This document shows positions 1,907 through 62,762 of a stretch of 64,000 nt of DNA, piece after piece; the first letter of the stretch is position 1, and each line of letters starts with the position of its first letter. Under the pieces are notes generated by a model that saw only the letters and a list, made by a program, of their open reading frames with translations, searched no databases and was not told the origin of the DNA. The stretch covers positions 1,550,001 to 1,614,000 of the forward strand of contig NZ_ADVG01000004.1 of NCBI RefSeq assembly GCF_000178855.1, in the 5' to 3' direction. The translations under genes were made by a program, and so were the position numbers. This DNA comes from Ktedonobacter racemifer DSM 44963. Lineage in GTDB: Bacteria > Chloroflexota > Ktedonobacteria > Ktedonobacterales > Ktedonobacteraceae.

Positions 1907-2305
1907 CTATTTGAGGAGGCGTTGAATAAGGTCTTCTAACTCATCCAAATCAAAGGGCTTGGCTAGGATGGCTTCAACGTGAATTCCTTTGATAGCGCGA
2001 GCTGCGCTCACGGCGCTGAGCATAATGATAGGAGGCAGAGCCTGCCCCCTATCAGCGGCCTCTTCCTGGAGGGCTTTGACAAAGTCAACCCCATTGAGGA
2101 CTGGCATCATATAGTCTGTAATGACAAGTAGTGGCCAGCGTTCAATAGCCAGCGCGAGCGCTTCTTGCCCATTGTAGGCAAGCACTGGTGTATACCCTAG
2201 CTCTGTAATAAACTCGGCTAGTGTTTCGGCAATAGCCACCTCATCATCGACAATGAGAATGGGGGATGATGAGGTGGGGACATGAGCACGGCCCTGTAAC
2301 GTCAT
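1907..2305 (-). CDS. Stand-alone response regulator receiver domain (CheY-like)
   Basis: A 132-residue single receiver domain with no output domain. ILIVDDE (about residues 16-22) supplies the acidic pocket, D64 in VITDYMMP is the predicted phosphoacceptor, and ILAKPFD near the C-terminus carries the conserved Lys. The ATG overlaps the stop of the upstream KaiC-like gene as ATGA, so the two are translationally coupled. It therefore probably acts with that ATPase. No cognate histidine kinase is adjacent; the only kinase in the window is at 61095-62762. Confidence 0.9.
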   Translation of the reverse strand: MTLQGRAHVPTSSSPILIVDDEVAIAETLAEFITELGYTPVLAYNGQEALALAIERWPLLVITDYMMPVLNGVDFVKALQEEAADRGQALPPIIMLSAVSAARAIKGIHVEAILAKPFDLDELEDLIQRLLK

Positions 2306-3882
2306 ACACTCCCCCTATCTGAGGGAGGTTCCTGGTAGGTTGGCGAAAGGTAGCCAGAATTTCGACTTACCTCCCTGGTGAGGCCCGCTAGCGTGTCCAG
2401 GTCGCTCTCCTGAGGAGTCAGGACACTAATGCCTTCAGGCGAGGTAATGATAAATTCACGTACATTATGGTCATGGGCTGAAAAACGCATCTTGAGCACA
2501 GAGATGACGCGATGCAGACTATTGTTGACCGCGAGGTGCTGTACCAGGATGACGTTTTCCGCCAGGATAGAAAGCGTGTCGGCGGAGAAATCAACGTCGG
2601 TTGAGATAGCCTTGGGGGCCTCTTTGAGTGCGAGTAAGGTAATGTCCCTGGACCTTAACATGGCCAACAGCGCTGCCAGGTAGTTGGAGACGCGATCCCT
2701 GCCACTACTCTCTACCACGGCCCGTTCGAGTTCGGCGATGCTGTCAATGACGACGCGTCGTATGCCGTTCTCATTGAGCGTGTTGAGCATGGTTGTCGCA
2801 ACTTCGTCAGGATCAATTTCAACAGGCTCCCAGCGTTGCAATATCAGGCCACCACCAGGGGCCAGGGCTGTGCGAAGCTGTTCACCGAGATGGAAAGACT
2901 CGGCTTTGAGCAGAAGCTGGTCGCGTGTTTCGCGGAAACTGAGGAATAAGGTTTTCTCGCCTTTTGGAATGGCTGAAAGCGCGAATTGGAGTGCGAGGAG
3001 TGTCTTGCCTGTTCCCAGGCTGCCAGCCAGGAGCGTACTGGTCCGGCGCGTAAGACCGCCTCCCAGGAGTGTGTCGAGTTCGAGAAGCCCAAAGGTGGCG
3101 CGATCTTCTTTGCTCGCTGCGACCCTTGTGCTGGAATGATCAATCATATGACTACGGTCTTCAAGGCGAGGATAAACCTGCACCCCATCCTTACCTAGTA
3201 CCATACTATGTCGACCCAACATTGGTGCGCGTCCACGTACTTTGAGTATCTCCAGGCTGCGGAAGGCACGTGTCCCGTTAAGGGTGAAATAGAGGCCAAT
3301 AAGCAAATCACCGGTGGTCATCTCGGGGAAGAGGGTTGGATCACGCGGATCAGCTTCTGTCGTGATGATCGTTGTCGTTCCGAGCAGGCTCAGGCGTGCG
3401 CCCAGGTCATACAGCAACTGGCGGCTTGTAACAAAGTCTGGTTCCAGAGCGCGAATTGCCTGAAAGCCGTCCAGAACGACCAGATTCGCACGCGTCTGAC
3501 GGACAGCAGCCACAATATCCTGCGCCGCAGGTAGCTTTCCCTGTGTCAGAAACTGCTGTATGCTAAAGATCTGTACCTCATTCCCTACCAGCTCGGGGGC
3601 AAAGAAGCTATATGATTGGAGATGACTAAGCAACTTCGTTGTTGGCTCTGAAAGTGCCGTTAAAAGCAGGGCCTTCTGCCCATGCCTGGCGACAGAAAAC
3701 GCGATCTGGCTTGCCAGGGTGGTCTTGCCGCTGCCGGGTGAGCCAAGAATAATCGCGAGCGAGCCTTTGGGTAATCCCCCCCCTAACACTATATCAAGTT
3801 GAGGTACGCCTGTTGCTTCAGTCATGTTTGACGATGAAGACCAGGTTGGCGTTTGATCCGCATCGGATGATGGTGTACTCAC
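2302..3882 (-). CDS. KaiC-like protein with two RecA/KaiC ATPase domains
   Basis: The 526-residue protein is a tandem KaiC duplication. Domain 1 starts with GVPQLDIVLGGGLPKG and a Walker A GSPGSGKTT at about residues 48-55. Domain 2 repeats the layout with LDTLLGGGLTRR and GSLGTGKTLL near 285. Each has a hydrophobic Walker B strand (NLVVLDGF; RRVVIDSI). The catalytic pair following strand 2 appears as SEP in domain 1 and RET in domain 2. The start is GTG after AGAGGAAAAT. Family members hydrolyse ATP as ring assemblies; KaiC proper drives the cyanobacterial clock, but no KaiA or KaiB is seen here. Coupling to a receiver domain points to signalling rather than DNA repair. Confidence 0.88.
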   Translation of the reverse strand: MSTPSSDADQTPTWSSSSNMTEATGVPQLDIVLGGGLPKGSLAIILGSPGSGKTTLASQIAFSVARHGQKALLLTALSEPTTKLLSHLQSYSFFAPELVGNEVQIFSIQQFLTQGKLPAAQDIVAAVRQTRANLVVLDGFQAIRALEPDFVTSRQLLYDLGARLSLLGTTTIITTEADPRDPTLFPEMTTGDLLIGLYFTLNGTRAFRSLEILKVRGRAPMLGRHSMVLGKDGVQVYPRLEDRSHMIDHSSTRVAASKEDRATFGLLELDTLLGGGLTRRTSTLLAGSLGTGKTLLALQFALSAIPKGEKTLFLSFRETRDQLLLKAESFHLGEQLRTALAPGGGLILQRWEPVEIDPDEVATTMLNTLNENGIRRVVIDSIAELERAVVESSGRDRVSNYLAALLAMLRSRDITLLALKEAPKAISTDVDFSADTLSILAENVILVQHLAVNNSLHRVISVLKMRFSAHDHNVREFIITSPEGISVLTPQESDLDTLAGLTREVSRNSGYLSPTYQEPPSDRGSV

Positions 3883-3968
3883 ATTTTCCTCTTCTAATCA
3901 TTGCTTGCTACTTATTAGTATGACACAAAATGCTTGCATCTGACCAGTGTTAACGGCCTGCCTTCCAG

Positions 3969-5213
3969 CTAACTCTCTTCGCTGGTAATGGCGACGATTA
4001 GACCAGCCAGCAGCGCCACGCGTTTAGGAATGGGAGGAAGTTTAACATACTCTGTAGTTGTGTGAGCACCTGAGCCGATTGCGCCCAACCCATCAATGCT
4101 TGGGCACCCTTCGTCCGCCGTCTTACAGCAGTCTGAGGCGCCGCCACGCGTCTCCGGGGCAAAGCGTGTATGCAGAATGTTTTCCGTGATAAACCGTATT
4201 TTCTCAGCCATGCCCAGGCTTGCATCCGTTGCAGCCATGGGAACCATAGAATCAGGTTCACTGGTCAATGTTAATTGGACGTCTGGCACAAGCTGATTGC
4301 GTAATAATTCGCGCCAGCGTGCCTCGGCGTCGAAGCGGTCTTCAAGGCGCAGAAAGCGGATATCAAACATGATCTGGGCAAAGTCGGACACAATATTGGC
4401 GCGTGATCCTCCTTGAATCGGACCCGCGTTAATGGTAAAGCCTGGACGCCAGCCCATAAAGCTCTGGGCCTGGACAATCTGGTGAGCCAGTTCTAGAACT
4501 GCATTCCGCCCTTTTTCGGGGCTACTACCCGCGTGCGCCGCCCTGCCCTCGGCGGTAAGGCGATAATGCGCGCATCCCTTGCGCCTGGTTACCACAGTCC
4601 CAATAGCACTTGCGCCTTCCAGTCCAAGTACATACGGTTTCTCATCACGAGCTATCTGCCGTACGAGGCTGGCCTGGTAACGATTCGAAATCTCCTCGTC
4701 GGGCACAGATAAGAAGATCAGCTTCTTAAAATTCCTGTAGTCATGTTGCTTGAGGATCTCCAGAGCATAGATCCCCTGGAGCAGCCCGGCCTTCATATCA
4801 ACGGTCCCCGGACCATAGAATTTATCTTTATCAAGCTGTATGCGTGTCTGGGCGGAACCTACCGGGTGAACGGTATCGTGGTGGCCAAGGAGGAGGCAGG
4901 TGGGGGCGTGAGGATTATCGCCCACAAGGGTGCCAATGAGTGCATTGCCGCGTGCATGTTCTACGATGGTTGTTTGCATCTCAAAGTGCTGGAGGAGAAC
5001 CGCGAGCTGGTCCGCCATCGTATCCAGACCCTCTTTATGCTCGGAAGGGGAATCAATGAGCGTGAGTCTGTGCAGGTCTTCTGTGAAACGTGGTATCGCC
5101 TCTTGCATGTATGCCAGCCCATTTGTGACTACGGCCTGGACGGGATTTGAGGCATCAATGGCATAGCGGGTATCCAGGAAAAGCGACTCCGATCTCTCCT
5201 CTGGCTGAAGCAT
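3969..5213 (-). CDS. M20 family metallopeptidase (ArgE/DapE/CPG2 type)
   Basis: A 414-residue cytoplasmic M20 zinc hydrolase. Metal-binding marks in order are LLLGHHDTVHPVG (first His/Asp), GPGTVDMKAG (bridging Asp), VPDEEIS (catalytic Glu pair), and GGASDCCKTADEG with a late His in GSGAHTTTEYV. A lid/dimerisation domain with RAAHAGSSPEKGRNAV lies between. The family removes amino acids or acyl groups from peptides or N-acyl amino acids; the glutamate carboxypeptidase-like layout fits best, but the substrate cannot be fixed. The ATG follows AAGGGG at good spacing. It is transcribed as a single gene. Confidence 0.88.
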   Translation of the reverse strand: MLQPEERSESLFLDTRYAIDASNPVQAVVTNGLAYMQEAIPRFTEDLHRLTLIDSPSEHKEGLDTMADQLAVLLQHFEMQTTIVEHARGNALIGTLVGDNPHAPTCLLLGHHDTVHPVGSAQTRIQLDKDKFYGPGTVDMKAGLLQGIYALEILKQHDYRNFKKLIFLSVPDEEISNRYQASLVRQIARDEKPYVLGLEGASAIGTVVTRRKGCAHYRLTAEGRAAHAGSSPEKGRNAVLELAHQIVQAQSFMGWRPGFTINAGPIQGGSRANIVSDFAQIMFDIRFLRLEDRFDAEARWRELLRNQLVPDVQLTLTSEPDSMVPMAATDASLGMAEKIRFITENILHTRFAPETRGGASDCCKTADEGCPSIDGLGAIGSGAHTTTEYVKLPPIPKRVALLAGLIVAITSEES

Positions 5214-5337
5214 GGCAACCCCTTTTCACTTAAAAGCACAACAATTCATTAGCGGCTCAGGCATGATTAAGTGTAACAGAGGATATACTACGATGCAAGA
5301 GAGTAGGATTGGGCGTCGCAAGATGTGAGTAAAGATA

Positions 5338-5381
5338 TATGGACGTGGATTAGGGGCATTCGCCCGCAATCCACGTCCATA
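5338..5381 (-). terminator. Stem-loop downstream of the CoxG-like gene
   Basis: Arms 5338-5351 and 5368-5381 pair perfectly over 14 bp (TATGGACGTGGATT), with an inner GGG/CCC stem. It lies just past the stop of the minus-strand CoxG-like gene. There is no strong U-tract, so termination is inferred from position only. It resembles the long palindromes elsewhere in the window. Confidence 0.5.
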
Positions 5382-5385
5382 CTTC

Positions 5386-5832
5386 TTACGCGTTCACCTG
5401 TTTGTCGAAGTTCTTGAAGAACTGGTCGAGCATACCTTTAACGGCGGGCTTGACGATAAGTTCAGGAACAGCGGCGACCTTGCCCGAGAGGCTGGCGGTC
5501 GCTTTGTAGCTGAGCAGGGTGATTGTACCCTCTTCGGCCAGGTCGACGGAGCAGCGAGCGCTAACGCTGCCCAGGGAGCTCCGAGGCTCGGCGACAAGCA
5601 CGAGGTGCGAAGGCTCTACGATATCCGTGGTTTGCAGGAAGACATCATATGAACCATTAAGAATCGCAAAATTGAGTGTGATATTCAGTTTAAGATAGCG
5701 TCCATTGGGGAGATCGACATACTCTGCACTCTGGCAGTTAGGGATACTCTTCTTGAGTACTTCAGGGTTAAGGAGTGCGTTAAAGACGGTGGCACGCGGA
5801 GCTGGAATCCGCTGTTCTCCTGTGAAATCCAT
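5386..5832 (-). CDS. CoxG/SRPBCC family protein
   Basis: A 148-residue SRPBCC-fold protein of the carbon monoxide dehydrogenase subunit G (CoxG) type. MDFTGEQRIPAPRATVFNAL is the typical opening strand and helix, followed by LNPEVLKKSIPNC and a C-terminal long helix (PAVKGMLDQFFKNF). CoxG-like proteins bind hydrophobic ligands and in carboxydotrophs help attach CO dehydrogenase to the membrane. No coxMSL genes are nearby, so that role is unsupported here. ATG 5832 is preferred over an upstream TTG because GAGGA lies at correct spacing. Confidence 0.82.
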   Translation of the reverse strand: MDFTGEQRIPAPRATVFNALLNPEVLKKSIPNCQSAEYVDLPNGRYLKLNITLNFAILNGSYDVFLQTTDIVEPSHLVLVAEPRSSLGSVSARCSVDLAEEGTITLLSYKATASLSGKVAAVPELIVKPAVKGMLDQFFKNFDKQVNA

Positions 5833-5969
5833 TCTGATCAATTCCTCACAATAGATGATACTATATATTTTGCAGAAAGCGGTTGGCTCCGATCGCCTCG
5901 CGCTTTACTTACATTTGCACTCTATTATATGTCTGAATATTTATTTTTATCAATGAAGATGCTAAATAG

Positions 5970-6042
5970 TACTGTCATAGAGGCAAGGGGTGTGGTGGTT
6001 TGGCTCCGTCAAACCACCACACCCCTTGCCTCTATGACAGTA
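5970..6042. repeat. Long perfect intergenic palindrome (33-bp arms)
   Basis: Arms 5970-6002 and 6010-6042 are exact reverse complements with a 7-nt loop. It sits between the TetR gene (ending 6072) and the CoxG-like gene start. The arm contains AAGGGGTGTGGTGG, also present in the palindrome at 9378-9435. One of a family of such palindromes in this window. Confidence 0.85.
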
Positions 6043-6071
6043 GCTTAATGATATCTCACACCTAGATATGC

Positions 6072-6689
6072 TCAAGATGTGCTCATCTCCTCAAGATCAC
6101 CACTAAGATAGTGCTGGCAGACGGAGCCAACAATCTTGATGAGTTGCTCGTCAGGAATTGTGCTCAGGGCCTCGGTATGCAGCAAGCTGCGCATAATATT
6201 GACGCCAATAAGCTGAGATAGAGCCAGTTCGGCGCGCAGGCACCCATCGGGTCCGCCAACCTTCTCCGCGATAGGTTGCAGGAATTGCTCGTTTAGAGCC
6301 TTGCGGAGCATGTCAGAGCTATCGTTGCTCGACGCGGAGCGGATCATAATGAGGAGCGGATCACTGGCGTCCTGCTTGCTCCAATGTGATATGTAGTGGT
6401 GAATCAGACTATGACCCAGGCTCATTCTGTCTCCACCGGGAAGCCCAATACAGCCATTGCCTTTATCCAATGTCGCCAGGAAGAGATCTTCTTTTGAACC
6501 GAAGTAGCGAATGACCAGCGCGGGATCGATACCAGCTTTAGTGGCGATGTCGCGAATAGTGACGCGCTCATAGCTATCGTGCGCAAAGAGCGTGCGTGCC
6601 GCCTCTAAGATGGCCTGGCGTGTCACGCCCGCGTCACGCTCGCGACGACAACGACGAAAAGTGTTTTTAGCGGTATCTCGTAAACTCAT
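6072..6689 (-). CDS. TetR/AcrR family repressor, likely regulator of divergent doxX
   Basis: A 205-residue TetR-type regulator. The N-terminal helix-turn-helix spans about residues 25-65 (AILEAARTLF...VTIRDIATKAGID...VIRYFGSKEDLF). The C-terminal ligand domain is typical in length but not assignable to a ligand. It is divergent from the DoxX gene at 6986, and two GTCAACA-N2-TGTTGAC palindromes lie on the doxX promoter between them. By standard TetR logic this protein most likely binds there, but that pairing is inferred. Confidence 0.85.
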   Translation of the reverse strand: MSLRDTAKNTFRRCRRERDAGVTRQAILEAARTLFAHDSYERVTIRDIATKAGIDPALVIRYFGSKEDLFLATLDKGNGCIGLPGGDRMSLGHSLIHHYISHWSKQDASDPLLIMIRSASSNDSSDMLRKALNEQFLQPIAEKVGGPDGCLRAELALSQLIGVNIMRSLLHTEALSTIPDEQLIKIVGSVCQHYLSGDLEEMSTS

Positions 6690-6781
6690 CTCGACTCCTC
6701 ATCTTCCTGGACCCGCATGTACCTCTAGCAACTACTCAGTCCCTCTGTCATAAAGTGTTTTCAGCGCCTGCGACGCTTCTC

Positions 6782-6846
6782 CGGTGGTATAGGATGTGGT
6801 GGAGCAAATGCCTGCGGCATTTGCTCCACCACATCCTATACCACCG
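6782..6846. repeat. Long perfect palindrome between divergent genes (31-bp arms)
   Basis: Arms 6782-6812 and 6816-6846 pair perfectly around a TGC loop. It lies between the divergent tetR and doxX genes, where a terminator would serve neither. A small imperfect hairpin (AGCGCCTGCGACGCT) abuts the left side, reminiscent of the mini-hairpin next to other members. Confidence 0.85.
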
Positions 6847-6869
6847 CTTTCATTATCAATCATAACATA

Positions 6870-6937
6870 GTCAACAGATGTTGACAAAATAGAATGAGAT
6901 AGTTTATAGTTTTCCTAGTAAGTCAACAAGTGTTGAC
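6870..6937 (+). promoter_or_regulatory. doxX promoter with two TetR-type operators
   Basis: Two near-identical palindromes, GTCAACAGATGTTGAC (6870-6885) and GTCAACAAGTGTTGAC (6922-6937), flank a sigma70-like promoter. The -35 TTGACA (6881-6886) is part of the first operator, and TATAGT (6905-6910) follows after 18 bp. Occupancy would block the promoter and the start region. Confidence 0.75.
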
Positions 6938-6985
6938 AAATGGATATAGTCGGGCCTGAGGGTCCGTAAAGAAGGGCGAATATTT

Positions 6986-7342
6986 ATGTACTGGGTTGCG
7001 CTTGTCTTGCAGGTATTATTGGGGCTGGCATTTCTCGCGGCCGGTTTCTCGAAGATAACACGTAGTAAGCAGATGGTGGAGAACTTTCAGAACCACTATC
7101 ACTATCCCCTCTGGTTCATGGTCCTGACCGGTGCGCTTGAAATTGTGGCTGCCTTGGGTTTGATTGTGGGTATCTGGGTACCGATTCTGGCTACATTGGG
7201 CGCGGTGCTCCTGGTCTGTATCATGTTGGGTGCGGTCCTGACGCATGTTCGCCTGAAGGACGCGATCTCTGGTATCGCTCCAGCGGCGGTCCTGCTCATA
7301 CTGGCGGTTGCCCTGCTGGCCATCCATCATCCTTTGGCATAG
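6986..7342 (+). CDS. DoxX family membrane protein
   Basis: A 118-residue protein with four predicted membrane helices. VLLGLAFLAAGFSKI is the DoxX N-terminal signature, and GALEIVAALGLIVG follows in helix 2. DoxX-like proteins are small inner-membrane quinone- or thiol-redox-associated proteins with poorly defined function. The ATG is preceded by GAAGGG. Its promoter carries two palindromic operators, probably for the divergent TetR gene, suggesting ligand-inducible expression. Confidence 0.85.
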   Translation: MYWVALVLQVLLGLAFLAAGFSKITRSKQMVENFQNHYHYPLWFMVLTGALEIVAALGLIVGIWVPILATLGAVLLVCIMLGAVLTHVRLKDAISGIAPAAVLLILAVALLAIHHPLA

Positions 7343-15150: not shown

Positions 15151-18100
15151 CTAGGGTATGACCACGTCCTGGAGGACGACTGGGCCTTTCGTGTAGTCAA
15201 GCTCGCTGGACTGCTGCACGTTGCTGGGGGTGAGCACATCCATGACCTTGGGCACGGTGGCGGGATCGACTGTGCAGTGGGGATCACTGCTCGCCGTCGC
15301 GCAGACGCCAAAGTTGTAGGGCTGGGGCGTCGAGGCGAAGCTGCGCGCCTGGTCGGGACTGTAGCCGTCCTGCCCGGTCAGGGTGACCGTGAAGCCCCAG
15401 CCGGAGCCGGGCTGGCCCAGCGTTGCCTTGGGTACGCTGAAGGTGATGTAGCGCGAGATGGCATTGGCACTGATGTTGATCGTGCCCAGCGTTGTCCCCC
15501 TAGCGTCGACGTAGCGCTGACCAAAGCCCTGGACTTCTAAGAGCTGGCTCCAGGACGCACCTGGATCGATGCTATAGTTACGCTGCGGATAGGCCGCTGC
15601 GATCGAGGTCTGGCTGGCTCCAGGCTCGTGTACGTAGACGTCGATGAGCTGCGCGCCCAGCGGGCTGCCAAAGGTCGGTGTCAGATCTGTCACCTGCACC
15701 TTGAAGATGATGTTGGTGCCATCATCGTAGACGCGGAAGTCCTGCATATCGTAGGCGCCAGGATGGAAGTCGCTGGCGGTCGGATAGGCGTAGTTGCCTG
15801 GGCCGTTATCGTCGTTACTCGGGTCAGTCCTCTCAAAGAGGAGCTTGCCCGGTGTGAAGTCGTACACGATGCTACGCGTATCGTGCGCGGTCGCACCATT
15901 CTGACTGACGGCAACGGTGTTGAGCACTGTGGTTCCGCCTGTGACGGCGACTTGCAGTGAGAAGGAGCCATCCGCGCTCGCGGTTGTACTGTAGGTCGTG
16001 GTTACACTCTTCTGATCGGTGTTGGTCGCGGCGACATAGACCGTGTTGCCGGGCGCGGTCGTACCCGTGACCGTGACGGGCGAGCCATTGACCGACGAGA
16101 AATTCTGCGGCATGTTTACCGTGAGCGAGGTCTGGCTAGTGTGATTGATAACGTAACGCTCGTAGGTGTTGCTGGGTCGTTCAAGCTCCTTTTGCGCCGC
16201 TAGGTTGTTGAAGAGGCGCACATAGGAGGCCGAGGCCCAGGTCAGGGGAGCCGCCGAACCAGCGGGCTTCCCGTTCTGGAAGCCGATGGAGGCAACCGTG
16301 GGGTCGGTCCCGTAGGGCGAGGCCGCCAGGTCGGGTTGCTCCCAGTCCTGCTCGGGGATCAGGCCCACGCCAGAGCCAAACTTGCGCAGCGTGTCCAGCA
16401 GGGTCGCGGCGGTGTCGTAGTTGCTGCTTGATACGTCGTACTCGCCGCGCTCCTCGGTTAGCAGCGGCCAGAGGTGTCCATTGCCCTGTCCGCTGGGTGC
16501 CCAGGGATGGCCATCCTTGGAGCTGTCGCCATAGCCATCACCATTGTAGCGATACCAACCGCTGCCGCTACTGGTATCAACCTTGATGGTCTTGTCGACG
16601 ACGTTCAAAGAGTTCTGGATATCGCTATCGCTGGCGGGAAGCAGGCCCAGGCGTACCAGTTCCAGGAAGCCCGCGTCGATAACGGTCCGCTGATCCTGCG
16701 TGGGGCCACCATTGCCCAGATTATAGCTGATGCTGGCATTGGGATCACCGGTCTTGGAGAGGCGGATAAAGTAGGGCTGACTCGAGAGCGAGCCATTGGT
16801 CGTCACAGTCCATTTCTTAATTGAGCGCTGCCAGTCGTCGGCCACGCCCAACCAGATTTTAGCGCTCTGTATATCGCCATTTTTCAGCGCGATATCTGAG
16901 GCCGCGACCAGGCCTGTAATCTCGGCGGCAATCGTCGAGGGTGAGTAGCCACCTTGTTCCTCCCAGCGCTCCACGCCAAAGCTTGGACCGTGACTGATCA
17001 CAAAATTGGCGGCAGGCTTGATATGTTGAGTATAGAGCGTGGCGTCAGTCATATTGAGCTGATAGGCCATCAGAATGGGGTAACTGGCTTCATCGAGCTG
17101 GGTCCCGAAGGAGTCGGGCGCGGTCTTGCCGTTGAGCAGGCTATTGCGTGGCATCGAGCCATCGGCCTGCTGCTGGCGGTCAAAGAGATAGTTGACCATC
17201 GCGCGCGCCGTCGCCAGGTCGCCATCCACATAGAAGCCGGTCCAGGCCTCATAGAGGTCGCGCGCGAAGACCTCGCGATAAGAGCCAAAGTAGCTGTTAT
17301 TAGGATCACCTGCCGAGACAGCCTGTCCCCAGGGAGAAGCCAGGCTGGCCACTACCGCGCCAGGATAGGTCTTATCCTCCGAGGCTTTGATCACATTCGC
17401 ATTCAGATAATACTCTTCAAGCAACTGTTTATATTGGTCAGCGGAGAGGTGTGGTTGTTTGATTGCCCGAAGCTTTAGTTGGGCGTCGTACTGCACCCAT
17501 TGCAGGGTATATTGAGCCAGTATTTTATCAAAGTCGCGCTTCAGTGAACTCTCAGCAGCCTTGACTGCGTCGGCCTGGGTCTGCCCGAAGCCCAGGGTAA
17601 AGGTCAGGTTACTGCTATGTGAGAGATCGGCTTGTACAGTCTGAACGAGGTTGCCATTGTTGGCATCCGTATAGAGCGCCGTCAGACTGTGGGACTTGTC
17701 CAACTGCGTCAATCCATCGCTCTGTCCGTCCACAAAACCGCTGGTCGCCTGGAGGAAGGGTTGTGAGGCATCCAGTGCGCTATAGACCGGAACGGCATAG
17801 TCGCGGTTGGCGGCATTGGACTTTGTATTGGTATCGAAGGCAATGGGAACCTGGTGTCCCGTCGAGGTATCGACAGTAGCGGAATCGTTCCCGCCGTTGG
17901 CGGAGCCGCCCCCACCATTGCCATTGATAGTGGCGTCGTAGCGCAGATAGAGTTTGTAGCCAGAGAGCTTCCCGGCCAGAGGCTGGAAGCGTAGGCGCAT
18001 CACCACTGTATTGGCGTTGGGATCGGTCAGATAATCGGTCACGAGGCGATACTTGCCGCTTTTGGCAGTCGCCGTCACGCGGCAGGCTAGCTCAGGCCCA

Positions 18101-18477
18101 TTGAGCGCCTGCACGCTGTAGGTCATATCGCGTGTCTGCAAGTCTGTGAAGCTGCTGCCATCGGTCACGACGTATTGCAGTGTCTTGACATTGGTATTGT
18201 CGATGGTCGGGTAATAGACATCGCTCAATACGCCATTGGCGAGCGTAAACCAGACCTTAGAGGTCGTATTGCGAGCCGTTCCCAGGCAGTCTTTGCGCGC
18301 CTGGTCGAAGTAGGAGAGCGTGCCTGGACCATCGGGCGCGGAAGAACTGGCGGCTTGAGCGGCCAGAGTTACCCGTGTTCCCAGGCCAAGCAAGAGGAGC
18401 GCGAAGGCCAGACCCAGGAGGGTACGCCAGCGCGAGAAGCGCCGCGTGGGCGTGGCATCCATACCGGTTTTCTGCAT
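15151..18477 (-). CDS. Secreted GH15 glucodextranase/glucoamylase, multidomain
   Basis: A 1108-residue exported enzyme that releases glucose from the ends of alpha-glucans. Residues 20-42 form a signal peptide hydrophobic core ending near AAQAA. An N-terminal beta-sandwich (about 45-320) precedes the alpha/alpha barrel (about 340-770). The likely catalytic pair is E507 in the WEEQGG motif and E709 in LIPEQDW, about 200 residues apart as in characterised glucodextranases. A Big-type beta domain (about 790-870) and a C-terminal DOMON-like glucodextranase domain (about 880-1070) follow. The start at 18477 has AAAGGA upstream. It suggests feeding on external dextran or starch. Confidence 0.88.
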   Translation of the reverse strand: MQKTGMDATPTRRFSRWRTLLGLAFALLLLGLGTRVTLAAQAASSSAPDGPGTLSYFDQARKDCLGTARNTTSKVWFTLANGVLSDVYYPTIDNTNVKTLQYVVTDGSSFTDLQTRDMTYSVQALNGPELACRVTATAKSGKYRLVTDYLTDPNANTVVMRLRFQPLAGKLSGYKLYLRYDATINGNGGGGSANGGNDSATVDTSTGHQVPIAFDTNTKSNAANRDYAVPVYSALDASQPFLQATSGFVDGQSDGLTQLDKSHSLTALYTDANNGNLVQTVQADLSHSSNLTFTLGFGQTQADAVKAAESSLKRDFDKILAQYTLQWVQYDAQLKLRAIKQPHLSADQYKQLLEEYYLNANVIKASEDKTYPGAVVASLASPWGQAVSAGDPNNSYFGSYREVFARDLYEAWTGFYVDGDLATARAMVNYLFDRQQQADGSMPRNSLLNGKTAPDSFGTQLDEASYPILMAYQLNMTDATLYTQHIKPAANFVISHGPSFGVERWEEQGGYSPSTIAAEITGLVAASDIALKNGDIQSAKIWLGVADDWQRSIKKWTVTTNGSLSSQPYFIRLSKTGDPNASISYNLGNGGPTQDQRTVIDAGFLELVRLGLLPASDSDIQNSLNVVDKTIKVDTSSGSGWYRYNGDGYGDSSKDGHPWAPSGQGNGHLWPLLTEERGEYDVSSSNYDTAATLLDTLRKFGSGVGLIPEQDWEQPDLAASPYGTDPTVASIGFQNGKPAGSAAPLTWASASYVRLFNNLAAQKELERPSNTYERYVINHTSQTSLTVNMPQNFSSVNGSPVTVTGTTAPGNTVYVAATNTDQKSVTTTYSTTASADGSFSLQVAVTGGTTVLNTVAVSQNGATAHDTRSIVYDFTPGKLLFERTDPSNDDNGPGNYAYPTASDFHPGAYDMQDFRVYDDGTNIIFKVQVTDLTPTFGSPLGAQLIDVYVHEPGASQTSIAAAYPQRNYSIDPGASWSQLLEVQGFGQRYVDARGTTLGTINISANAISRYITFSVPKATLGQPGSGWGFTVTLTGQDGYSPDQARSFASTPQPYNFGVCATASSDPHCTVDPATVPKVMDVLTPSNVQQSSELDYTKGPVVLQDVVIP

Positions 18478-55630: not shown

Positions 55631-58036
55631 GTGCGATCCGTTCAGCCGAAACTTGCTGGATAAGTAAGGGGAAGGCTGGCAAGACATTGATCAATGTCTT
55701 GATAACTGATTATCTGACGTGAGGTGCAATTCCTCACCTGTGAAGTGAGCACGGAAAGACGATGCCCTACGGTAGCGACTGGTCCTCAATCCGTAAAGCG
55801 GGTATCCAGGAGAGGAAACTGCTAGTCTGAAGCAGACCCATCTCCGAGTCAGGCGGCTATGGTTAGCAGTTCATTCAACAGAATGAATAACGCGAATGTG
55901 CAACGGAACCATCGTTAGGTTGAACAAGTCAAACAGGCTGATAGACTTGACCAAAAGGTAAGGTACCAATCTGCGAAACAATGGAGAAAGTGAAAGGGTA
56001 GTGTAGTGATACCCTGCCTCACTCACTAGCGTACCCGGTGGATAGCACAAACCTACGGCAGCGCAAAACAGATAATCGGAACGGAGTAACTCGAAGGTAC
56101 GCTCTCATTGGAGGTCGATACGATGAGCAGGAAACCATCCGCAAGCTGCCTCCGAGAAGGATTGCCTAAAAAGCCAATGCCTGGGGTAATGCCCAGGATA
56201 TGCTGACGTAGGCACGGTAACATGGAATGAAGAGAAACGAGTAGTATGGTGAAAACGAAGGCACCCAAGATCAAGCTACCACCTGACCCTGAGAGTGAAA
56301 GTTGGAACAAACTGCCCTGGCGCAAGCTCGAGCAGCATGTTTACCGCCTACAAAAGCGCATCTTCAAAGCCGAGAGCCGTGGCAACACAAGAGCAGTCCA
56401 CAAACTACAGAAACTTCTGATGAAATCCAGAGCGACAAGGCTTTTAGCGGTTCGACGAGTGACCCAAGACAACCAGGGAAAACGCACAGCAGGCATTGAC
56501 GGAGTAAAATCAGTCAAACCGGCCCAGCGTTTCACTCTGGCTGAACAAATCCACCCCAAGCAATGGTCTCAATACAAACCCCAACCAGTGCGAAGGATCT
56601 ATATTCCCAAGCCTGGAAAGGATGAGAAAAGACCCTTGGGGATTCCCATCATGCGAGATCGCTCGCACCAGTGCCTCGTAAAGTTCGCTTTAGAGCCACA
56701 ATGGGAAGCCAAATTTGAACCCAATAGCTTTGGTTTCCGCCCTGGACGTTCCTGTCATGATGCAATTCAAACCATTCACACCAATATCTGCACACAGGCA
56801 AAGTATGTCCTGGATGCCGATATTAAAGGAGCATTTGATCATATTGATCATCAGGCACTTCTCGCCAAACTCGACACCTATCCCGCAGTAAGGCTGCTTG
56901 TGAAAGCTTGGCTCAAAGCGGGAATCATTGATAATGGCATATTTGACGAGACCCGGAAAGGAACCCCGCAGGGGGGAGTCATCTCACCATTACTTATGAA
57001 TATCGCGCTTCATGGTATGGAAACGGACTTGATAGCGGCCTACCGGTGGAAGGAGGGACGACCCAAATTTGTCCGCTACGCCGATGATCTGGTGGTTTTC
57101 CATCCCAAGCTCGAAGGCGTCGAAAAAGCAAAAGAAATCCTTTCGGAATGGTTACAGCGCATTGGACTAGAACTCAAGCCGAGCAAGACACGGATCACGC
57201 ACACCTTGATGGAATATCAGGGAAAAACGGGATTTGATTTCCTTGGTTTCACCATACGCCAGTATCCGATGGGGAAAACACACACCGGAAAGCGGCCTAA
57301 TGGTCAACCACTTGGCTTCAAGACACTCATCAGACCCAGTAAGGAAGCGATTGCGCACCATGTGAAAGAAACGCATCGTCTGGTAGCAGAGCACCGGAGC
57401 ATGAAACAGGAAAAGCTCATTAAAGAGTTGAACCCGGTCATTTACGGATGGGCAAACTACTACCGAAGCATCTGTGCAAGAAGGGCATTCAAGCACTGCG
57501 ACATGGTACTTTTTCGACAACTGGAAAGATGGGCGAATCGCAGGCACCCAAACAAAAATCGACACTGGATTATGCAAAAGTATTGGAAAGTGGATGAAGG
57601 AAAGGGATGGATCTTCCGAACCCCCGACCTACAACTACGAAACCACCAACAAACATACATCCGGCGTCATGTAAAAGTGAAAGGAACTGCCAGCCCATAT
57701 GACGGAAATCTTCTTTACTGGAGCCAGCGACTCAAGAAACACCCGCTTCTTAACGGAGTTAAAGCAAAACTTTTACAGAAGCAAGAGGGAAAATGCCGTT
57801 GGTGTGGACTGTACTTCAAAGATGAAGACCTCATAGAGATCGATCACATTACCCCGAAAAGTGAAGGAGGCGGAGAGGAATTGAGCAACAAGTTCGCTCT
57901 CCATCGTCATTGCCACGACGAGCGCCACTCGAAAAAGGCCAACGGTACCTACGACAAAGGCCATGTTACTGAGGAGCCGTGTGACGGGAAACTGTCAAGC
58001 ACGGTTTTGAAGACGAGTAGGAGTGGTGACACTCAT
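55631..58036 (+). mobile_element. Group II intron inserted in tnpB
   Basis: About 2.4 kb. The proposed 5' end is GTGCGATCCG after the tnpB codons for KSLNQ; the 3' end is ACTCAT after domains V and VI. Between the 5' end and the RT start (56246) are about 615 bases with many small helices and no other gene, fitting intron domains I-IV. Flanking tnpB coding is continuous in homology across it. The exact splice points are uncertain by several bases: the canonical choice does not restore the frame. Confidence 0.85.
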
Positions 58037-58042
58037 GCTTAG
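56246..58042 (+). CDS. ltrA: Group II intron reverse transcriptase/maturase with HNH endonuclease
   Basis: A 598-residue intron-encoded protein. The reverse transcriptase (about residues 70-340) includes RRIYIPKPGKDEKRPLGIP, GFRPGRSCHDAI, GTPQGGVISPLL and the catalytic RYADDLVVF near 275. Maturase domain X (about 380-460) contains NPVIYGWANYYRS. The C-terminal HNH domain (about 510-575) has CRWCG, IEIDHITPKSEGGGEE and HRHCHDERH. It assists splicing and retrohoming. The frame runs through domains V and VI and stops only in the downstream exon, which is unusual. Confidence 0.93.
   Translation: MVKTKAPKIKLPPDPESESWNKLPWRKLEQHVYRLQKRIFKAESRGNTRAVHKLQKLLMKSRATRLLAVRRVTQDNQGKRTAGIDGVKSVKPAQRFTLAEQIHPKQWSQYKPQPVRRIYIPKPGKDEKRPLGIPIMRDRSHQCLVKFALEPQWEAKFEPNSFGFRPGRSCHDAIQTIHTNICTQAKYVLDADIKGAFDHIDHQALLAKLDTYPAVRLLVKAWLKAGIIDNGIFDETRKGTPQGGVISPLLMNIALHGMETDLIAAYRWKEGRPKFVRYADDLVVFHPKLEGVEKAKEILSEWLQRIGLELKPSKTRITHTLMEYQGKTGFDFLGFTIRQYPMGKTHTGKRPNGQPLGFKTLIRPSKEAIAHHVKETHRLVAEHRSMKQEKLIKELNPVIYGWANYYRSICARRAFKHCDMVLFRQLERWANRRHPNKNRHWIMQKYWKVDEGKGWIFRTPDLQLRNHQQTYIRRHVKVKGTASPYDGNLLYWSQRLKKHPLLNGVKAKLLQKQEGKCRWCGLYFKDEDLIEIDHITPKSEGGGEELSNKFALHRHCHDERHSKKANGTYDKGHVTEEPCDGKLSSTVLKTSRSGDTHA
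57974..58007 (+). ncRNA. Group II intron domain V
   Basis: A 34-nt element starting GAGCCGTGTGACGG, with a GAAA-type tetraloop (GGGAAAC), a two-base bulge and an ending ACGGTTT. It has the length and layout of catalytic domain V. Domain VI follows up to 58036. Both overlap the coding frame of the RT. Confidence 0.88.
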
Positions 58043-58616
58043 TTTTAACAACAAAGAGCGCGCCAAGCAGCAGCAACGCCTCGCGCATGAGAACCGATAC
58101 ACTTCACGCCAGCTGGATCGCGTGACGACGAAGCGCAATCGCCGTGTGGATGCGTATCTGCACACGGCCAGCCGTCGGATCATTGATCTGCTGGTGGGCG
58201 AAGGCATCGGAACGCTGGTGATTGGCAAGAATCCCTTGTGGAAACAAGAGGTGACCATGGGACGCAGGAACAACCAGCAGTTTGTGCAGCTTCCCCATGC
58301 TCGTTTCATTGAGCAGTTGACCTACAAAGCGCACCTGGTGGGGATCAGGGTCATCCTTCAAGAAGAAAGCTACACCAGCAAGGCCAGTTTTCTGGACGAC
58401 GACCCCATCCCAACCTATGAAGCCAACACGGCTGAGAAGCCGGTGTTCTCAGGCAAGCGTGTGGCTCGCAGTTGGTATCGTGCCAGGGATGGACGCCTCA
58501 TTCATGCCGATATCAACGGATCCTACAACATCTTACGCAAAAGTAGCTCCGACCCTTTGCAAGTGGGGCGAGGAGTAGCGGGAGCCGCAGTTCTCCCCAG
58601 ACGGCTGGCCGTCTGA
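58037..58616 (+). pseudogene. tnpB: tnpB 3' part, downstream of the group II intron
   Basis: C-terminal half of the tnpB begun at 54961. It resumes as SFNNKERAKQQQRLAHE, in line with the YNKQRAVLQ of the 62913 copy. It continues with THE family blocks VTTKRNRRVDAYLHTASR, IGTLVIGKNPLWKQE, RRNNQQFVQLPHARFIE and EESYTSKAS, ending with RuvC-III (HADINGSYNILRK). At the usual RuvC-II Glu position it reads VIGKN, and the zinc-knuckle Cys after YTSK is Ala. A hairpin CAGACGGC/GCCGTCTG (58598-58615) at the stop marks the element end. Confidence 0.85.
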
Positions 58617-61034: not shown

Positions 61035-61097
61035 CGTAAAAATAGTGAGAAGCCAGTTAGGCGGCCGCCTAACTGGCTTCTCACTATTTTTACGTTA
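61032..61097. repeat. 66-bp perfect palindrome spanning stop codon to stop codon
   Basis: Arms 61032-61064 and 61065-61097 are exact complements with GCGGCCGC at the centre. The first TAA is the stop of the HNH gene and the last TTA is the stop (TAA) of the convergent histidine kinase. The A5/T5 runs give each transcript a hairpin with an A-rich foot and T-rich end, so it can terminate both ways. Confidence 0.9.
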
Positions 61098-62762
61098 TGA
61101 TTTATTTAGAGGGAGGGTAAACCAGAAGGTTGAGCCCAGTCCTGGGGTGCTGGTGACACCGACGCGTCCACCCTGGCGCTCGATAATTGAGCGGCAGATG
61201 AAGAGGCCCAGGCCCAGGCTGACCCCGGAACCGTTGCGTACATGAATGCCGGGGGCGCGATAGAAGCGTTCCCAGATTCGTTTCTGCTGTTCCTCATTCA
61301 GTCCAGGCCCCTCGTCACGTACAGAAACAGAGACCGCGTTTGATTTTAGAGTAACCTCGACGGCGACGGGCTTATCGGTGTCAGAGTATTTCAGCGCGTT
61401 GGTCAGGTAGTTGTTGATGACCTGTTGCACGCGCTCGGGATCGGCCTTGATCCGTATTTCAGCCTCCTCAGGCATTATGAGCTGTATCATGCGATCAGGA
61501 TGCAGCGTGCGTTGGTCCTCGACGCAATCCTGAAGGCTCTCGACGAGATTATATAGACGCGGGCGCAGTTCCATGCGGTCGGCGCGCACACGCGAGGCAT
61601 CGAGGAGATCATGAACCAGGCGGTTTTGCAGCTCAAGCTGATGCTCGATGCGCAGGAGATTCTTCCGTAACAGAGAGAGCAGGTCACTCTTCTCCTCTAC
61701 CTGTGGTTGGCTGCCAAGCACGCGCTGTACCTTGCGTTCAGAGACCTGAACACACATCTTTGCTGCGGTAATTGGCGTACGTAACTCGTGTGCTACGACA
61801 CTGATGAAGTTATCTAGCTCAGCCAATAGGTGCTCTACCTTATGGCGTGCCTGCACCTGCTCGGTAACATTGGAGCCGATGATAATCACACCATTGACGT
61901 TCCCATCAGAAGCAAGCATAGGCTGATACGCTACGTTATAGTACTGTTCAACCAGGGAGCCGTCGTTGTGCTGATCGACAAGAACACGATGTTCGACAAT
62001 CGAATGCTCTTTGCCAGTTGTACGTACTTGTTGAATCACGGGCGCGACTTGAGAGGCATACTCAGGCAGGGTTTCTTGCAAGGTTTTGCCCAGAACCGGG
62101 CGCTGACCAAAGGCCTGCCAGGCATTGGGATTAACAAGTTCAAAGCGCTGCTCATCTTTGCTCAGGACGATAATGGAAACAGGGGCTTGCATCAGGATGC
62201 GCGAGAGATTCGCGCGTGCAGCCTCTGCATCGGCGCGAGCTTTGATTGTCTGGTGATGCGCACGTTGTACCTGAGTGCTCAGCAGGGTTATGCCCAGGCC
62301 AACCAGGGTAAACATAAACATGCTATAGAAAAATTCAATCTGCTCAAGTGCCAACGAGATATGCGGTGGTAGGACCAGGAAGCCTAGCAGGAACGTACCC
62401 CAGAGTGTCGCAAGCAGGCCAGGAAGTGCTCCCCAGCCCAGAGAGACGATGAGGATGCCCAGCACTACAGGTGCGCTAACAAAGCTTAATTCCGGAGCGA
62501 TACCTTTAAGGTAGAAGATTCCCAGAACTGTCAGGAAAGGCAGCAGTAGAGCCAACATATAGCCAGCTAAAGGTCGGCGTAGAGGGGCTGGCAGATATGA
62601 CGGTGTAAAGACTGAGGCTCCCCAGAACGCATACAGGCGTTTCCAGAAACCCTGATTGCCTGGATTTATGCGCCAAGTGTTCTGCTCAATAGAAGATGCA
62701 GGATGCTGTGAAACCTGTTCTTGGAGCGTTGAGGTTGATTTTTTGTGCTTGATTGTGTGCAT
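61095..62762 (-). CDS. Sensor histidine kinase (DUF4118-PAS-HisKA-HATPase)
   Basis: A 555-residue membrane kinase. Residues about 65-175 contain four membrane helices of the KdpD-like DUF4118 type. A PAS domain (about 190-300, VSIIVLSKDEQRFELVNPNA) with a PAC-like tail follows. The H-box is FISVVAHELRTPITAAKM, with phosphoacceptor His near 322. The ATPase domain has NYLTNALKYSD (N-box), VRDEGPGLNEEQ (G1) and GLGLFICRSIIERQGG (G2). No response regulator is adjacent. It may act on an unlinked partner or the stand-alone receiver at 1907. Confidence 0.92.
   Translation of the reverse strand: MHTIKHKKSTSTLQEQVSQHPASSIEQNTWRINPGNQGFWKRLYAFWGASVFTPSYLPAPLRRPLAGYMLALLLPFLTVLGIFYLKGIAPELSFVSAPVVLGILIVSLGWGALPGLLATLWGTFLLGFLVLPPHISLALEQIEFFYSMFMFTLVGLGITLLSTQVQRAHHQTIKARADAEAARANLSRILMQAPVSIIVLSKDEQRFELVNPNAWQAFGQRPVLGKTLQETLPEYASQVAPVIQQVRTTGKEHSIVEHRVLVDQHNDGSLVEQYYNVAYQPMLASDGNVNGVIIIGSNVTEQVQARHKVEHLLAELDNFISVVAHELRTPITAAKMCVQVSERKVQRVLGSQPQVEEKSDLLSLLRKNLLRIEHQLELQNRLVHDLLDASRVRADRMELRPRLYNLVESLQDCVEDQRTLHPDRMIQLIMPEEAEIRIKADPERVQQVINNYLTNALKYSDTDKPVAVEVTLKSNAVSVSVRDEGPGLNEEQQKRIWERFYRAPGIHVRNGSGVSLGLGLFICRSIIERQGGRVGVTSTPGLGSTFWFTLPLNKS

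Follow-up and report, generated by a model that had tools for sequence, protein, structure and literature searches.

The window analysed here, a 64,000-nucleotide stretch of the Ktedonobacter racemifer DSM 44963 genome, carries two overlapping genes on its reverse strand, the strand of all features of the pair given below. The upstream gene (positions 2302–3882) encodes a double-domain KaiC-type ATPase of 526 aa with a GTG start, as supported by the list of open reading frames (ORFs), Pfam and a predicted fold matching KaiC structures, and the downstream gene (1907–2305) encodes a stand-alone receiver of 132 aa without an output domain (ATG start; PF00072). The kaiC stop codon and the receiver start codon share the sequence ATGA, a 4-nt overlap (2302–2305). 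By eye, a ribosome-binding-like motif for the receiver, AGGGGGAG (2309–2316), lies inside the 3′ end of kaiC just ahead of the receiver ATG, and AGAGG stands ahead of the kaiC GTG start. Our analysis confirmed the observation made in the sequence-only reading of this DNA, which had described a tandem KaiC and a single receiver sharing an ATGA: both ORFs lie where it placed them, and Pfam finds two KaiC stretches and one receiver domain in them. The 5′ neighbour of kaiC encodes an M20 peptidase (Pfam). Two more KaiC–receiver pairs are present in the same genome, with KaiC 55–56% identical and each with its own receiver. Elsewhere in the window we observed an HNH endonuclease ORF near the edge (44–745; Pfam HNH), which we take to resemble the C-terminal portion of IscB-type nucleases; a large glucodextranase-like protein comprising GH15 with N and C modules (15151–18477); and a group II intron with a reverse transcriptase/maturase/HNH ORF (56246–58048; Rfam Intron_gpII match at 57972–58048).

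Pfam KaiC (PF06745) matched the 2302–3882 ORF twice (E 5e-56), and its closest solved sequences are KaiC proteins, including the designed KaiC 8zn5 (E 1.9e-44). An AlphaFold model built from an alignment of 32 sequences reached a mean pLDDT of 85.2, and the listed 50 of its 1943 Foldseek matches in the PDB were all KaiC, with TM scores of 0.69–0.74 by query length. The CI-like domain (3163–3816, about residues 23–240) contains the Walker A motif GSPGSGKTT (3718–3744) and the triplet S78-E79-P80, 'SEP' (3643–3651), and the CII-like domain (2413–3105, about residues 260–490) contains the Walker A motif GSLGTGKTL (2998–3024) and R317-E318-T319, 'RET' (2926–2934). The Walker B aspartate is present in both (D138 and D380), and in both the first glutamate of the canonical pair is replaced (S78, R317) while the second is present (E79, E318). 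Conservation was counted over 44 KaiC–receiver pairs, the window's included, defined by a KaiC ORF longer than 450 aa and above 340 bits and a receiver within −120 to +130 nt, shorter than 400 aa and above 50 bits. In this set the CI Walker A lysine K53 and E79 are kept in 44/44 and the CII counterparts K293 and E318 in 43/44 and 40/44, respectively; the first position of the CI triplet is S, A or T, never E. The SEP/RET difference had prompted the suggestion that one of the domains may be regulatory. That idea was rejected, as both domains show the same glutamate pattern and keep the Walker A lysine and the Walker B aspartate; with E79 and E318 so widely kept, SEP/RET by itself is no sign of a dead domain. 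Across 20 relatives, CII was less conserved than CI in 178/190 comparisons, a pattern suggesting that CII varies more than CI does. Two of the pairs (L057 and L058) have a degenerate CII, in which the second glutamate and the lysine of the KMR motif are missing and the region of the phosphosite columns is shortened; the Walker A lysine and the receiver are kept, and a kinase gene lies 5′. These two loci form a natural test of which KaiC domain the receiver needs.

The receiver consists of a single Response_reg domain (PF00072, residues 16–127, E 5e-19), and no DNA-binding domain accompanies it, which agrees with the earlier suggestion that the pair does not act through a DNA-binding output. 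The acidic pair D20/D21, D64, S97 and K116 are all present, and among the 44 paired receivers, counted above 50 bits, D21, D64, T/S97 and K116 are kept in every one. D64 (2114–2116) is the predicted phospho-accepting aspartate. Solved relatives of the window's receiver include Spo0F and CheY.

To place the pair among its relatives, 61 genomes were searched, and the regions around KaiC matches were examined with purpose-built profiles of receiver and KaiC; many of the genomes are fragmented, and one (G000) is 95.5% complete with an estimated contamination of 16.7%. Of the 47 genomes belonging to the window's order, 21 had a strong relative of KaiC (E of 1e-57 or lower), a patchy distribution; the matches left unopened include G019:C2, G021:C894 and G101:C51. 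Within the window's own KaiC clade (n = 29), a receiver lies directly 3′ of kaiC in 28 members and directly 5′ in one (L018), always on the same strand. A FastTree phylogeny of 98 KaiC proteins of the phylum (ORFs of at least 440 aa and at least 340 bits, from loci outside L067–L106, near-copies kept), for which the program warned of long branches meeting, separated the half that includes the window's clade (52 KaiCs: 43 with a receiver 3′, 3 with one 5′ and 6 with none) from the other half (46 KaiCs: 1 receiver 3′, 5 receivers 5′, 38 with none and 2 cut by contig ends). The 3′-receiver label changed 7 times on this tree as against 32.7 times when shuffled (0/500). Three loci stand outside the pair and tree counts: L059, with a broken kaiC and a receiver only on the opposite strand; L025, cut by a contig end; and L066, with a split kaiC and a receiver 3′. 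At L027, from a related clade, there was no receiver within 1.4 kb downstream of KaiC. At L152 and L176, receivers flank one KaiC gene on both sides. None of the fetched ORFs matched both profiles, that is, no KaiC–receiver fusion was found among them.

The association also held when approached from the receiver. A search with the window's receiver in 11 genomes (its own and 10 relatives) returned 18 matches at E 1e-13 or better, of which the top 12 (E of 1.4e-17 or lower, among them the window's receiver itself) all adjoin KaiC and none of the remaining 6 does; four genomes in which the KaiC search gave no strong relative of this type (G007, G009, G022 and G023) together gave one match, at 4.4e-15. 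Moreover, KaiC and receiver are inherited together. Their tree distances were correlated (Spearman 0.75; 39 pairs, after 5 near-duplicates of the 44 were dropped; 0/2000 permutations), as were those of 23 core pairs (0.63; 0/2000 permutations), and when receiver swaps were confined to pairs of one genome, the observed correlation was reached in 28/3000 trials. Because the pair is conserved across relatives, chance pairing is excluded. The sequence-only reading had named the lack of a conserved gene pairing among the grounds for its refutation; as the survey found a conserved unit, that ground falls away.

Of the 44 pairs, nine are directly adjoined by a gene for a histidine kinase, as determined with a profile built here and, for the main candidates, with Pfam. 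In eight of these (L021, L054, L057, L058, L112, L172, L173 and L189) it lies directly 5′ of kaiC, overlapping or 20 nt away, and in L152 directly 3′ of the receiver. The L172 kinase is called by the home-built profile only, and the L112 and L057 kinases, next to contig ends, comprise the HATPase part only; those of L021, L054, L058, L152 and L173 contain PAS or GAF domains, and that of L189 carries a receiver. The kinase-bearing pairs are scattered over several branches of the tree, five of them within the window's clade of 29. An abutting kinase is lacking in 35/44 pairs: the 5′ sequence extends for 1 kb or more in 30 of these, the window's included, and is shorter in 4, and the remaining one is L048, described below. 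We considered whether the pair stands without any third gene, and this was ruled out: the 44-member neighbour cluster contains 36 receiver ORFs and 8 histidine kinases, in which Pfam found HATPase_c throughout and HisKA in all but L112. Beyond KaiC, receiver and kinase, no neighbour cluster recurred in more than 3/31 independent groups in a survey in which 16/38 loci have less than 3 kb on one side.

Two of the kinase neighbourhoods have features of their own. At L054, kaiC is overlapped by the gene for a sensor kinase of 1340 aa (2834–6853) that combines MEDS with PAS, GAF, HisKA and HATPase domains. The pertinent passage of PMC5847659 lists MEDS as an inactivated KaiC, and the KaiC ring of this locus may therefore receive its input from a KaiC-like sensor. 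At L048, a short HisKA–HATPase ORF (6671–7339) lies 359 nt 5′ of one KaiC paralogue from the window's own genome, and no such ORF was seen at the near copies L047, L049 and L050. In the window itself, the nearest kinase found, with PAS and DUF4118 domains, is encoded at 61095–62762, about 57 kb from the pair, so that any input kinase of the window's pair would act in trans; across the whole genome, 150 of 232 kinase candidates were scored.

The KaiC–receiver arrangement is also present in Proteobacteria, and related KaiCs occur in several other signalling contexts. In a deltaproteobacterial contig, KaiC is divided over two ORFs and directly followed by a REC–HisKA–HATPase protein, and at two further proteobacterial loci (L081 and L095) a related KaiC is followed by a hybrid kinase with a REC domain. 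A search of proteobacterial plasmids found 78 records; of the six loci opened, four carry a stand-alone receiver on the 3′ side (two receivers in tandem at two of them), at L194 a kinase with its receiver at the C terminus stands beside KaiC, and at L196 an annotated ATP-binding protein matches a receiver weakly (35.7 bits) at its C terminus. Beside the plasmid KaiC of L191 lie 174 bases (959–1132) that PLSDB labels CTX-M-122, far below the length of the whole gene. GGDEF–EAL proteins stand beside a related KaiC at L089 and L182, and fusions of KaiC to a TrmB/MarR winged helix lie beside a second KaiC gene at L156 (3755–5971), L158 (3859–5829) and L060 (4016–5971). At five loci (L132, L133, L166, L167 and L169), the 5′ end of kaiC is overlapped by a gene for a MerR-type HTH and a receiver. 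We considered a KaiA-like pseudo-receiver at this upstream position and rejected it, since the sequence is that of a MerR-type HTH plus receiver (with Pfam run on L132 only); this layout is possibly a DNA-binding variant of the same coupling.

The arrangement of kaiC and receiver is already known from the 2011 Ramlibacter genome paper (PMC3164672) and related work. According to the passages of PMC3164672 on kaiC neighbourhoods, these contexts follow the KaiC tree, and in the third ('black') context the gene after kaiC often encodes a single-domain receiver, or else kaiC has a signalling protein, for example a kinase, in its vicinity; phosphorylation sites are incompletely kept. The window's pair belongs to this context, as kaiC is directly followed by a single-domain receiver and the phosphosites are incomplete; those passages offer neither a mechanism nor a matching of receiver and KaiC trees, whereas both trees were compared here. 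In the second context of the same passages, KaiC is followed by a specific histidine kinase, without KaiB. Its likeness to the window lies in the two-component part and the lack of KaiB, and it differs in that the kinase is 3′ of kaiC, no lone receiver is stated and the phosphosites are largely kept. In the KaiA3–KaiB3–KaiC3 system, as presented in the relevant part of PMC11372060, KaiC cooperates with a receiver-type domain in which a phosphorylatable Asp is mostly present, and KaiA3 orthologues are also reported from Roseiflexus and Chloroflexus; KaiA3, however, has a KaiA-like C-terminal domain and a KaiB3 partner, and the window's lone receiver has neither. Fusions of KaiC to REC are described in the corresponding section of PMC5847659 for six genera of the archaeal Methanosarcinaceae, in which receiver and KaiC-family ATPase form one chain, in contrast to the two overlapping genes of the window. 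The KaiC–receiver pair goes without mention in the available passages of PMC6627678 and PMC12488501, and the roles of KaiC relatives outside cyanobacteria are mainly unclear according to the pertinent passage of PMC5520375. Our additions are the measurement of co-inheritance, the conservation of the phosphoacceptor, the setting free of KaiA and KaiB and the kinase–KaiC–receiver operons, points on which no paper was found among the openly licensed papers searched.

Profile searches of the window's genome found no match at E 0.001 to KaiB (PF07689) or KaiA (PF07688), as the sequence-only reading had supposed, and a Kai oscillator is unlikely because neither was found. KaiB was likewise found in 0/24 other genomes with this KaiC type, 22 of which show the pair; the same search exceeded its cut-off in 1/14 control genomes, so a divergent KaiB could escape detection. 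A KaiA3-type C-terminal domain is also absent, as the protein stops after the receiver. In the Kai clock, output runs to RpaA via SasA and CikA, and KaiA and CikA carry pseudo-receivers. A self-contained KaiC timer, an hourglass to which the receiver would be the input, is in keeping with the double-domain architecture, the retained ATPase residues and the KaiC fold of the window's protein. We nevertheless regard such a timer as very improbable. In addition to the missing KaiA and KaiB, the window's KaiC scored 133.7 bits against the clock model TIGR02655, below the cut-off of 546.25, and has S438-I439 (2566–2571) where the clock phosphosite pair S431/T432 aligns, the second residue not being phosphorylatable. 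The T432 equivalent is S/T in 3/44 paired KaiCs only, and the S431 equivalent varies. KaiCs without the two sites probably cannot sustain a cycle, as stated in the pertinent passage of PMC3164672. The best explanation of the pair is a KaiC-based signalling switch rather than a Kai clock.

Since KaiC and receiver are inherited together, in some cases with a sensor kinase, they probably form such a switch. We favour a two-component module in which phosphorylation of the receiver changes the state of the KaiC ring, and we give this reading about an even chance of being right. It was chosen because the receiver lacks an output domain and keeps its phosphoacceptor, its closest relatives lie beside KaiC, and some pairs have kinases of their own. 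Precedents for it are KaiA3, the archaeal KaiC–REC fusions and the deltaproteobacterial KaiC with a REC–HisKA–HATPase protein directly after it. In the proposed mechanism, a sensor histidine kinase, encoded beside the pair in some relatives and elsewhere in the window's genome, would phosphorylate D64 of the receiver, which would then dock on the KaiC-type double ring and alter its ATPase or assembly state. Docking would most likely proceed via CI, the suggested side because this half is better conserved and pairs survive with a degenerate CII. The ring would in turn hand the signal to further partners, the downstream target. Of the two-component-like switch claimed earlier, the conserved unit, the phosphoacceptor residues in 44 receivers and the kinases abutting 9/44 pairs speak for the two-component part; action through the KaiC ATPase state, which would entail receiver binding, is the part that we carry forward conditionally.

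Against the favoured reading stand the 35/44 pairs without an abutting kinase, the distance of about 57 kb between the window's pair and the nearest kinase found, and the loci L027 and L059. Nor is an overlap of two genes in itself proof of contact between their products, and trees may match through co-inheritance even where the products do not touch. Furthermore, kinase operons are compatible with signalling from receiver to KaiC or from KaiC to kinase and receiver. Control could thus run in reverse, with the ATP/ADP state of KaiC governing the kinase or receiver phosphorylation and the receiver acting on another protein. The same co-inheritance data serve this alternative equally, and it draws on the kinase genes that abut kaiC in 8/44 pairs, on the proteobacterial KaiCs followed by REC-bearing kinases (L081, L095 and L194) and on the output-like layout of the loci in which KaiC follows a MerR-type HTH and receiver gene. 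As kinases beside kaiC fit both directions, they lowered our estimate for the favoured reading and raised that for reverse control, which we still hold to be rather unlikely, given a lone receiver without an output domain and the 35/44 pairs without an abutting kinase. Alternatively, the receiver might be a phosphate relay or sink, akin to Spo0F or DivK, that merely shares the KaiC transcript and touches KaiC indirectly through a common kinase. Its size, its solved relatives and the kinase genes adjoining some pairs would suit such a role; even so, this alternative leaves unexplained why the closest relatives of the window's receiver adjoin KaiC and why paralogous pairs have matched partners, and we consider it improbable.

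The favoured two-component reading can be extended to a broader proposal, which we regard as a long shot. A phosphorylated receiver would directly set the state of the KaiC double ring without KaiA or KaiB, and receiver-on-KaiC docking would be an ancient and general mode of input, of which the KaiA pseudo-receiver, the KaiA3 receiver and the archaeal KaiC–REC fusions would be later variants and the kinase–KaiC–receiver operons the complete form. With one conserved phospho-switch and kinase-bearing relatives, the pair offers a minimal system for signal input to KaiC, and it allows one to ask whether receiver control preceded clock control.
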